DNA from: Candidatus Nitrospira neomarina
Lineage (GTDB): Bacteria; Nitrospirota; Nitrospiria; Nitrospirales; UBA8639
DNA: 64,000 bases
Assembly: GCF_032051675.1 (NCBI RefSeq)
Contig: NZ_CP116968.1
Span: 186,001 to 250,000, forward strand
Direction of reading: 5' to 3'
The notes beneath the pieces were generated by a model that did no database searches, had not been told where the DNA came from, and saw only the letters and a list, made by a program, of their open reading frames with translations. Below, piece after piece: positions 30,183 through 33,683 of this stretch. Positions within the stretch are counted from its first letter, which is position 1, and each line of letters begins with the position of its first letter. The position numbers and the translations under genes are program-made.

Positions 30183-30965
30183 ATGAAGCGATCAAGGTCG
30201 AAAGCCACAAAAACCCGTCGCCCAAAACCTCTCTGGAATATCGGTTCGCAGAGAAAGCCTCGTGTTCGGCGATTCCGGTGGATTCGTATCATTCCATTTA
30301 AAGCGATATTTATTATTCTCGGCCTTTATGTGTTATTTGAGATTCTCACCTTTCCGTTTCTCTCGATCGCCCGGTTGCCCACGGAAAATCCCACAGAGTC
30401 CGCGTTGATGCGGCAACGCATCGACGAAGCACATGCTCAAGGCACCACGCTGAAAATCGATTACCGATGGACGCCGCTCTCAAGCATTCCGCGTCACGTT
30501 CGTATGGCCATTCTGGTATCCGAGGATGGAGCATTTTATTCTCATACCGGCGTGGATTGGCATGAGGTCCTGGAATCTATTGAAACCAATTTGGAGAAAG
30601 GACGGATTGTTCGGGGGGGCTCAACCATAACCCAGCAATTGGCCAAGAACTTATACCTCTCGACCTCCAGGGATCCGATTCGCAAAGGTAAAGAACTTCT
30701 CATTACCTGGATATTGGAATCGACCTTGAGTAAAAAACGTATCCTTGAACTCTACCTCAATATCATTGAATGGGGACCAGGCGTGTTTGGCATTGAAGCC
30801 GCTGCTCAACGCTATTTCCATAAACCGGCCTCGCGGCTTTCTATGGATGAGGGCGCCCGCCTGGCAGCGGTTATTCCCAGCCCCCTTCGGCACCAACCCA
30901 CGGAGACCACATCATACGTGGAAAAGAAAAAAGAACTCATCCTCCGTCGTATGTCAGTGCGATAA
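30183..30965 (+). CDS. mtgA: monofunctional peptidoglycan glycosyltransferase MtgA
   Basis: 260 residues: a basic N-terminus, one membrane helix at about 38-58 (IPFKAIFIILGLYVLFEIL), then a family 51 glycosyltransferase domain. Catalytic motif 1 is VSEDGAFYSHTGVDW (Glu of EDxxF), motif 2 GGSTITQQLAKNLYLS, and motif 4 SKKRILELYLNIIEWG. It polymerises lipid II into glycan strands at the outer face of the inner membrane and has no transpeptidase domain. No clear ribosome site precedes ATG 30183. Diverged copies of its 3' end occur at 31684 and 49418, both beside toxin-antitoxin loci. Confidence 0.93.
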   Translation: MKRSRSKATKTRRPKPLWNIGSQRKPRVRRFRWIRIIPFKAIFIILGLYVLFEILTFPFLSIARLPTENPTESALMRQRIDEAHAQGTTLKIDYRWTPLSSIPRHVRMAILVSEDGAFYSHTGVDWHEVLESIETNLEKGRIVRGGSTITQQLAKNLYLSTSRDPIRKGKELLITWILESTLSKKRILELYLNIIEWGPGVFGIEAAAQRYFHKPASRLSMDEGARLAAVIPSPLRHQPTETTSYVEKKKELILRRMSVR

Positions 30966-31027: not shown

Positions 31028-31282
31028 TTAGTAGTGGAAGCGCAACTGGGCGATTAAGAGTGCGTCTCCCTCTATTCGATAGACCATGCGATGCTCATCA
31101 GTTATGCGGCGGGACCAGAATCCTGAAAGTGCATGCTTCAATGGTTCGGGTTTACCTATACCTGTGAAGGGATCGCGTTGTGTCTCCCGTATTAATTTGT
31201 TGATTCGTTCGACCATGCGTTTGTCCTGCTTCTGCCAATAGAGATAGTCTTCCCATCCTTCGTCAGCAAATATCAGCTTCAC
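31028..31282 (-). CDS. yoeB: YoeB-type toxin (mRNA interferase)
   Basis: 84 residues, the same length as E. coli YoeB, with all catalytic residues at the expected positions: Glu46 in KPEPLKH, Arg65 in ITDEHRMVY and His83-Tyr84 at the end (RFHY). YoeB binds the ribosome and cleaves mRNA in the A-site. The gene overlaps the antitoxin by 4 bases (ATGA), as is normal for this pair. Nothing is missing, so it is likely functional, in contrast to the decayed toxin genes at 48-49 kb. Confidence 0.93.
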   Translation of the reverse strand: MKLIFADEGWEDYLYWQKQDKRMVERINKLIRETQRDPFTGIGKPEPLKHALSGFWSRRITDEHRMVYRIEGDALLIAQLRFHY

Positions 31283-31530
31283 TTGGCCAACTTCCGCTCA
31301 ACGCCCTTGCCGGCGTTCAATTGGGCGGCGGCCGAAAGGAGGCGTTTGGCGTTGGCGGGCGTACGCAAGAGATAGGCGGTTTCCTCTAACGCCTTATAAT
31401 CTTCGAGCGAAAGCATCACGACAGACTGCTCTCCGTTGCGGGTGATGATCAAAGGTTCATGGTCGTTGCACACTCGGTCCATGGCACTGGCCAGGTTTGC
31501 ACGAATAGTAGTATACGTCACGGCATCCAT
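31279..31530 (-). CDS. yefM: YefM-type antitoxin (Phd/YefM family)
   Basis: 83 residues from ATG 31530, preceded by GGAGG. The DNA-binding N-terminal half starts VTYTTIRANLASAMDRVCND and has EPLIITRNGEQSVVMLSLEDY, the Phd/YefM signature. The C-terminal part binds and neutralises YoeB. An inverted TGTACA repeat lies just upstream (31549-31566), so autorepression by the YefM-YoeB complex is expected. Confidence 0.92.
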   Translation of the reverse strand: MDAVTYTTIRANLASAMDRVCNDHEPLIITRNGEQSVVMLSLEDYKALEETAYLLRTPANAKRLLSAAAQLNAGKGVERKLAK

Positions 31531-31683: not shown

Positions 31684-31803
31684 CTGGCTCGGCTTTCTAT
31701 GTATGAGTGCGCTCGCATAGCATGGGTGATTCACAGTCCGCTTCGGCACCTACCGAAACCACGCCATATGTGGAAATGAAAAAAGAGCTGATCGTATGGA
31801 GGA
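31684..31803 (+). pseudogene. remnant of an mtgA 3' end
   Basis: In frame, codons 31690-31746 read RLSMYECARIAWVIHSPLRH, matching RLSMDEGARLAAVIPSPLRH of MtgA at 12 or more aligned positions. After a small deletion the next frame reads TETTPYVEMKKELI, matching TETTSYVEKKKELI. A frameshift and the missing remainder make it non-coding. It lies on the far side of the yefM-yoeB pair, so that pair sits between the intact mtgA 3' end and this remnant. Confidence 0.75.
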
Positions 31804-31949: not shown

Positions 31950-33683
31950 CTATGGTGTCGTAAATTGCGTAATTTTACAGCTTGGTGAATCGGGTAGAAA
32001 GGGCATTCCTGGACGGAACTGCTCGGCGCATTGCTTGATTGCCAGTGCAGCATCAGCAGTCCCTTGGTCAAAGGTGATCTGCCCGGGCGTCATCCAGATC
32101 GGCGATGTGGCGGAGTGTGGATGCTTATTATCCTGTGAACGGGCTGTGGCCTTGATACCTAAATCAAGCGCCGTGCCATTGTTCCCGACGATGCCGGTGT
32201 TACTCACGTTGTTGACCCCCATGCGATGACAGCCGTTGCATTGATTGTCGCTGACCTCGACCTTATAGGCTTTCCACGAGGCGAAATCAGCGCCGACAAA
32301 GGAATAGGGCTCGGGGTCGCTGTTGAAGGTGATATCACCCGTACCGGGCAGCTGGTTAGGGCCTGATATCTGGGCGAGATACGGGGATCGGATGATTGGC
32401 CCATTGTCATGGCAACTGACACAGGGGAATTTGCTGTTGACAATTTGTGAGGGTGTCATCCAGAAAGCTGGATTGCCCACCCCCTTGGAAGGCGCCTTGA
32501 CCTTCCCATCATGGCTCAAGTGAAAGCCTTCTTCCAGTGCCCCCTGATAGAAACACGTTTTGCCATTGACTTTATTGTGCTGGATGATTGCCACGTCGCC
32601 ATACTGCCCTTGGGATAGGCCCATCTTTCGAGCATGCGCCACCACATAGGCGTCTGGCGTATTGATCAGCACCCGAAAACGGCTCCCACGATCGCATTTT
32701 CCGTTTAGCACGTTCGGACGATCACAGGTTCCGTCTGGATAGGTCGCGGTAGCCGGAGTGAGATGATCGGTTGGAACCGTTGTCCCCAAAGGGCTATCGA
32801 CATCAAAATCGGGAACAGACACGCCGATGGCCTGATCGCATTCCCTGGCAAAGGCTGCAAGGACATCCGTTCCTCCCGGTGTGGTTAGGAGGCCTGGCCA
32901 ATTCCCGGCAACAGGCGCAGGATAGCCGAATCCTCCCCCACTTTGATCGTCGGCACGATCAGCCACAACGTCATACCGCATATACTGATTGCCCTTAAAG
33001 AAATAGACAACCGACTTCCCCTCGATCTCCGTAGGCCAGGCCACCGCACCGTCGATTCCACCTGGAAACTTGAAATTTGGCCAATTGCCCGCAATGGGCT
33101 TCGGGTAGCCCGGGTCAGCCCGATGTCTCTTCACATCAAAGCGGATGTACTGATCATCCCGGAAAAAGTACGCGACGGTCCTGCCGCTTCTCGGGACAGG
33201 CCAAACCACAACGGCATCCACCCGATCTGTCCAGATCCCAGGCCACTTCAATGAGATCGGCTGAGGGTAGGCCCGGCCGGCGCCATCCGCCGCATCAGCC
33301 CGATCAGCATCCACGTCATACCTCATGAACTGATGGCCTTTGAAGAAGTAGGCGACCGTCTTGATTTCTGCTCCCCCCGGAGGCGGCGCAGGCCAGAAGA
33401 CTGCCGCGTCCATGTTCTCCTCAAAAAGTCCAGGCCAGATGTTCCGGATGGGGCGAGGGTACGCATTGCCACTGCCATCGTCACTGTCCGCCCTGTCTTG
33501 GGCGATGTCGTATCGGGCATATTCACTTCCCTGGAAGAAATAGACCTTGCCGTTATTCCAGACCACCGGCACCAGTTTTCCTGAACCGGTCAACTGAGCC
33601 CAAACGTCCACTGTCCCACAGAAACTCACCGCGATGAGCATTCCGCAGAGCGTTGACAGGAAAATTTCACGAGACATTCTCAT
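31950..33683 (-). CDS. secreted hemopexin-repeat protein with two heme c motifs
   Basis: 577 residues with signal peptide (MLIAVSFCGTVDVWAQ). Residues about 35-290 hold four hemopexin-like blades, each with YFFxGxxYxRYD and a later P-x-P-I...WPGL: VYFFQGSEYARYD, AYFFKGHQFMRYD, AYFFRDDQYIRFD and VYFFKGNQYMRYD. The C-terminal half is different and carries two CxxCH sites, FPCVSCHDNGP and NQCNGCHRMGV, so a di-heme cytochrome c is likely. Export to the periplasm fits heme attachment. Hemopexin propellers bind ligands or matrix and are uncommon next to c-type heme in one chain. AAAGGGAT precedes ATG 33683. Confidence 0.82.
   Translation of the reverse strand: MRMSREIFLSTLCGMLIAVSFCGTVDVWAQLTGSGKLVPVVWNNGKVYFFQGSEYARYDIAQDRADSDDGSGNAYPRPIRNIWPGLFEENMDAAVFWPAPPPGGAEIKTVAYFFKGHQFMRYDVDADRADAADGAGRAYPQPISLKWPGIWTDRVDAVVVWPVPRSGRTVAYFFRDDQYIRFDVKRHRADPGYPKPIAGNWPNFKFPGGIDGAVAWPTEIEGKSVVYFFKGNQYMRYDVVADRADDQSGGGFGYPAPVAGNWPGLLTTPGGTDVLAAFARECDQAIGVSVPDFDVDSPLGTTVPTDHLTPATATYPDGTCDRPNVLNGKCDRGSRFRVLINTPDAYVVAHARKMGLSQGQYGDVAIIQHNKVNGKTCFYQGALEEGFHLSHDGKVKAPSKGVGNPAFWMTPSQIVNSKFPCVSCHDNGPIIRSPYLAQISGPNQLPGTGDITFNSDPEPYSFVGADFASWKAYKVEVSDNQCNGCHRMGVNNVSNTGIVGNNGTALDLGIKATARSQDNKHPHSATSPIWMTPGQITFDQGTADAALAIKQCAEQFRPGMPFLPDSPSCKITQFTTP

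Follow-up and report, generated by a model that had tools for sequence, protein, structure and literature searches.

The gene described here encodes what we regard, with a probability of roughly 0.6, as a secreted, modular redox protein, in which a hemopexin-like propeller serves as the carrier and dock of a di-heme c-type cytochrome domain, and whose function is possibly related to phenols. It lies on the minus strand of a 64,000-nucleotide stretch of DNA (the window) from Candidatus Nitrospira neomarina, whose genome is a single contig of 4.8 Mb and whose closest public relatives carry the labels Nitrospira or Nitrospirales. According to the ORF table of the window, the gene starts with ATG, is open throughout and has a product of 577 aa; four hemopexin-like blades and two CxxCH sites in one exported chain, as claimed in the original prediction for this gene, were both borne out (Table 1). 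Our Pfam analysis identified PF00045 in four stretches, each of them passing individually (84.8 bits against a cut-off of 21.3, E-value 3.8e-24), and matched nothing else in the protein; the di-copper tyrosinase domain (PF00264) is absent from it. The structure prediction that had been proposed as a check agrees with this assignment: the AlphaFold model of the chain, with pLDDT values mostly of 65–87 in the propeller region, is similar to the hemopexin propellers of vitronectin and MMP (Foldseek: 7rj9, E-value 3.1e-13, TM-score 0.83 on the target). The N-terminus, MRMSREIFLSTLCGMLIAVSFCGTVDVWA-Q, was judged by eye to be a Sec signal peptide, and its A-Q-L junction is conserved among orthologues while their N-termini vary; the protein is therefore probably exported. 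The sequence has a signal peptide but reveals no anchor, and a lipoprotein anchor via Cys22 was ruled out, as this Cys is not conserved among the orthologues.

Table 1. Features of the hemopexin–cytochrome gene and its product, in positions of the window.
Feature	Position	Strand	Basis
Whole gene, apparently monocistronic	31950-33683	-	ORF tables, Pfam, similar neighbours in congeners
Putative signal peptide, residues 1-29, cleavage after VWA	33597-33683	-	sequence reading; low pLDDT
Hemopexin-like four-bladed beta-propeller, residues 30-270	32874-33596	-	PF00045, Foldseek
Di-heme c-type cytochrome domain, residues 271-577	31953-32873	-	homologues, AlphaFold2 model (pTM 0.81)
Heme-binding motif 1, CVSCH, residues 421-425	32409-32423	-	invariant in 73/73
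Heme-binding motif 2, CNGCH, residues 482-486	32226-32240	-	invariant in 73/73
Met531 (PIWMTP), putative axial ligand of heme 2	32091-32093	-	Met pattern in 73/73 homologues

A database search for the same architecture, another of the checks proposed, found the full-length hemopexin–di-heme fusion in nine other Nitrospirales assemblies and partial copies in further ones. The full-length orthologues, which come from the same genus and from a genus of another family in the order, are 77–95% identical over the whole chain. Conservation of this kind across several assemblies excludes an assembly error as the source of the fusion, which had been named in advance as a finding that would overturn it.

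Searches of Pfam and NCBIfam with the C-terminal domain, either alone or via 24 diverse members of the family, gave no significant match. The class I cytochrome c profiles missed it (best E-values among the 24 members 0.025 for PF00034 and 0.012 for PF13442; E-value 0.18, below the cut-off, for the window domain against PF13442), and a sequence profile search of the PDB returned nothing convincing. A heme-free AlphaFold2 model, calculated from 73 sequences (pLDDT 76.7, pTM 0.81), places a four-stranded sheet ahead of the heme region and has no clear fold relatives (best Foldseek E-value 1.1, best VIA-align Z-score 3.2), a result for a model that does not establish a new fold. Both CxxCH sites are invariant in all 73 homologous domains; in 20,000 shuffles of residues 271–577, a single CxxCH arose 0.8% of the time and a pair never did. 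A CxxCH motif in an exported protein marks a c-type cytochrome at the sequence level, and this chain combines such motifs with a signal peptide recognised by eye; we infer that two hemes are covalently attached at these sites. A Met in the context WMxP or xMP is found 36–68 residues past the second CxxCH in 73 of 73 domains. Judging from this pattern, heme 2 is likely to be His/Met-ligated, and the Met downstream of CxxCH that is typical of class I cytochromes c is present for this heme only; for the first heme there is no invariant Met or His among the 73 domains that could act as the second ligand. The other invariant residues include R352, Y460 and W470 as well as Cys 282, 320, 330, 377 and 552, with Cys 569 nearly so. 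Two further Cys, at columns 295 and 351, are both present in 65 of the 73 domains and both missing from the other eight, the rows of hemopexin-fused Nitrospirales, which is the pattern that a disulfide pair would produce.

Across 84,980 species genomes scanned, the di-heme domain was found at 79 loci, which we inspected with flanks of 7 kb. At 45 of them, mainly alpha- and betaproteobacterial, the domain constitutes a stand-alone exported protein encoded on the same strand directly after the genes for a molybdopterin hydroxylase and a 2Fe-2S subunit; these neighbours are molybdopterin- and 2Fe-2S-binding by RefSeq annotation, with Pfam agreeing. The other 34 loci have no Mo hydroxylase or 2Fe-2S genes within the 7-kb flanks and consist of fusions, contig-cut fusions, one fragment (L071) and one tandem stand-alone pair. 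The latter, from an alphaproteobacterial genome bin (L038:5872-8032), comprises tandem di-heme genes with two CxxCH each and no adjoining Mo hydroxylase. In a quick maximum-likelihood tree, which has long branches, the operon forms group together and are separate from the fused forms. Exported molybdenum hydroxylases with cytochrome c subunits are exemplified by nicotinate dehydrogenase and AldFGH. In our reading, the di-heme domain and the cytochrome-like third gene found in operons for exported molybdenum hydroxylases go back to a common ancestor. A search of the whole window genome detected no MoCoBD_1 protein; thus, the domain works here without the partner it has elsewhere. Of the surface redox function suggested initially, the extracytoplasmic redox role is supported, given that the free-standing homologues are mostly partners in Mo hydroxylase operons; for a surface location the sequence, with its signal peptide and no anchor, offers no support.

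The modules fused to the di-heme domain are mostly propellers or glycan-binding folds. Hemopexin is found at the N-terminus of the fusions in Nitrospirales, and one member of this order (G240) carries five tectonin-like repeats, below the Pfam cut-off, at the C-terminus of its di-heme protein. The domain bears BTRD1 repeats in Myxococcaceae, a fucose-lectin propeller of the PHL/PLL type in Archangium (L039, E-value 9e-42), and FG-GAP repeats plus a weak ricin-lectin match in Marinagarivorans, while the long forms of Kofleriaceae and relatives include a PPC domain and an additional, third CxxCH. By analogy, the lectin-like partners suggest a docking role for hemopexin. Proteins of ~1,200 aa, mostly from Myxococcota, that combine the di-heme domain with a third CxxCH and in some cases with PPC form their own branch of the tree (L055, L058, L060, L069, L073, L076, L080, L085, L091, L093, L094).

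The redox module has been exchanged as well. A search with the propeller alone identified a protein from another genus of the same order (G284, locus L130) with the same signal peptide and hemopexin part (79% identity) and, after them, a tyrosinase domain (PF00264, E-value 1.3e-30) that contains the His-rich motifs expected for two coppers. In sister genomes, the hemopexin–cytochrome gene adjoins a divergent pair of ~520-aa genes, and the hemopexin–tyrosinase gene of G284 adjoins orthologues of this pair (84–87% and 41–43% identical to those in L030–L032; the pair in G047 is more distant, at 34% and 26% identity). The DNA similarity between G284 and the sister genomes extends over the neighbour gene and the propeller, at whose end it stops. 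These alignments show that the redox module has been swapped at one locus. The evidence for a link with tyrosinase comprises this single intact locus, one decayed copy of the hemopexin–tyrosinase version (G184) and one neighbouring pair (G394), where the gene for a distant relative of the di-heme domain (hhalign probability 97%) is part of a same-strand run with tyrosinase and HEAT-repeat genes; in G284 and G034, too, the tyrosinase gene is followed by a HEAT gene. Of 233 genomes of the order, 38 encode a tyrosinase, and none was found in the window genome. The site of the hemopexin–cytochrome gene in the window differs from the swap locus, and the ~520-aa paired genes are located elsewhere in genomes of the window lineage. 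These paralogous pairs belong to no Pfam family (L160:7612-9210/9298-10794; L162:10197-11696/7911-10082; L171:6960-8543/5301-6863); in two Nitrospirales genera they adjoin hemopexin genes, and in the window genome they stand by themselves. Other Nitrospirales tyrosinases are fused to a DUF346 (PLL-type) propeller, VWA or dockerin (L164:1716-4169, L165, L163:616-3330, L167:1366-3219).

For heme ligation, docking and the direction of electron flow we infer the following scheme. The signal peptide would export the protein, and the C-terminal domain would receive two hemes from the cytochrome c maturation system. Heme 2 would act as a His/Met electron-transfer heme, and heme 1, for which neither a Met nor a His is conserved as second ligand, would be five-coordinate or carry a variable ligand. 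The hemopexin propeller would serve as a docking or matrix-binding carrier, for which PLL-lectin, tectonin-like or BTRD1 modules stand in elsewhere. Electrons would most likely come from small extracytoplasmic reductants that are probably phenolic or aromatic, and this function would overlap with that of the tyrosinase replacing the di-heme domain on the same carrier in a relative. A phenolic substrate is the weakest step of the scheme, a tentative proposal drawn by analogy from the exchange with tyrosinase and the adjacency to it. Somewhat more doubtful is a broader generalization, by which the C-terminal domain would found an undescribed family of di-heme oxidoreductases, namely secreted phenol-handling enzymes that are functionally interchangeable with tyrosinase, draw on the same propeller carriers (hemopexin and PLL lectin) and are even exchanged for it in place at one chromosomal locus.

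The main rival to this scheme is a peroxidase-like enzyme, i.e. a secreted di-heme protein of the peroxidase or MauG type, in which heme 2 would exchange electrons with an open, five-coordinate heme 1, the site of the reaction with peroxide or substrate. The presence of an invariant Met for heme 2 and of none for heme 1 is consistent with such an enzyme, the invariant R352, Y460 and W470 could line its active site, and the replacement found in G284, a tyrosinase, is itself an enzyme. We nevertheless consider it unlikely: Pfam and NCBIfam gave no match to a di-heme peroxidase or MauG family and Foldseek none to their fold, an absence that by its nature is weak evidence, and the free-standing homologues are found in Mo hydroxylase operons, where a plain electron acceptor is expected.

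The phylogenetic distribution bears on another possibility, a periplasmic electron shuttle that would feed the nitrite-oxidising respiratory chain of Nitrospira, with the propeller docking onto a membrane complex. An exported di-heme protein with a His/Met heme pattern in a nitrifier lineage fits such a function, but its presence is patchy, with the di-heme domain encoded by only 16 of the 236 genomes in the order and by 8 of the 21 sampled within the genus itself, and a tyrosinase has been swapped in within a relative, so that we regard the shuttle as improbable. The 16 genomes of the order include 14 with hemopexin fusions, one with the tectonin-like fusion (G240) and one with the distant relative (G394); three of the 14 fusions are cut by contig ends, and that of G373 (L033) is truncated beside a transposase-like gene.

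Serum hemopexin holds its heme between two propellers, with His ligands provided by the linker and the second propeller. The window protein has a single propeller and no His in the linker, and of the two His residues in its propeller, H187 is conserved in the orthologue alignment and H117 is not, so the two-propeller heme site is lacking. Together with the tyrosinase found on the same propeller, this speaks against heme binding by the hemopexin part, and the best reading is that it acts as a carrier and not as a heme binder. A heme scavenger or carrier, in which hemopexin would bind free heme and the cytochrome part reduce or hold it, has the name and the fold of the propeller in its favor, but on the same grounds (one propeller against two, no linker His, only H187 conserved, a tyrosinase on the same carrier) it is highly improbable. 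Just as improbable is that the CxxCH sites bind metal or form disulfides only: the domain indeed fits no known cytochrome family, but the CxxCH motifs with their His are invariant in 73 domains, the protein is exported, a Met follows the second site, and the operon neighbours are redox enzymes that need an electron acceptor. The same genome also encodes a 788-aa protein (L118:10951-13317, ~391.4–393.8 kb) in which seven hemopexin stretches surround a weakly matching reprolysin-like metallopeptidase domain with the motif HExxHxxGAPDE, a layout that recalls MMP.

In the window, the hemopexin–cytochrome gene stands alone between a DEAD helicase gene and a stretch with a transglycosylase gene and a toxin–antitoxin pair. 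This helicase/transglycosylase-side arrangement is common to congeners; the gene has no conserved operon partner in the window lineage, its neighbours being common within the genus only. The YoeB/YefM-like toxin–antitoxin pair, recognised by eye (31028-31530, minus strand), is flanked by direct repeats of ~107 nt (30834-30941 and 31690-31793, 80–82% identical). The copy at 30834-30941 overlaps the 3' end of the transglycosylase gene (30183-30965), and hence the toxin–antitoxin element seems to have duplicated the end of that gene; the same pair is present in G019 (96% identity). PADLOC matched no defence system, and no Rfam families or tRNA were found within the window. A virus origin was considered and dropped, as one pattern scan gave no viral relative, and so was a plasmid origin, since the plasmid matches are stand-alone distant homologues only.

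Taken as a set, the propellers, the di-heme domain and the tyrosinase look like a plug-and-play secreted redox kit, of which we found no description in the open-access literature. The combination of hemopexin and Nitrospira retrieved there only a review of heme in pathogens, and a lectin domain combined with a diheme cytochrome in a fusion was not found. The analysis reveals an unnamed di-heme domain common to molybdenum hydroxylase operons and to secreted fusions in Nitrospirales, Myxococcota and other bacteria. Some nitrifier lineages, it further suggests, send out redox enzymes that act on organic compounds, and bacterial hemopexin domains can be general carriers instead of heme binders. 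The exchange of a heme module for a copper phenol oxidase, on the same carrier and at the same locus, amounts to a natural experiment, and it makes the function testable by comparison of the heme and tyrosinase versions.

Comparison with known systems delineates what is particular to the window protein. Vitronectin, the C-terminal domains of MMP, serum hemopexin and legume albumins likewise possess four PF00045 repeats and the four-bladed fold, whereas the window protein is bacterial, has a single propeller without the two-domain heme site and is fused to a redox domain. With regard to the cytochrome subunits of Mo hydroxylases, most free-standing homologues of the di-heme domain are likewise encoded by the third gene after the Mo and 2Fe-2S subunits; in contrast, the window protein is encoded by a single gene that is not part of such an operon and has no Cytochrom_C match above threshold. 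Propellers of the type of the PLL/PHL fucose lectins of Photorhabdus (DUF346) are joined both to the same di-heme domain (in L039) and to Nitrospirales tyrosinases, and thus an unrelated, seven-bladed family stands where the window protein has hemopexin. A further counterpart is the hemopexin–tyrosinase of G284, which has its locus in common with the hemopexin–cytochrome genes of sister genomes and differs in its C-terminal half, a di-copper tyrosinase in place of the di-heme domain of the window protein.
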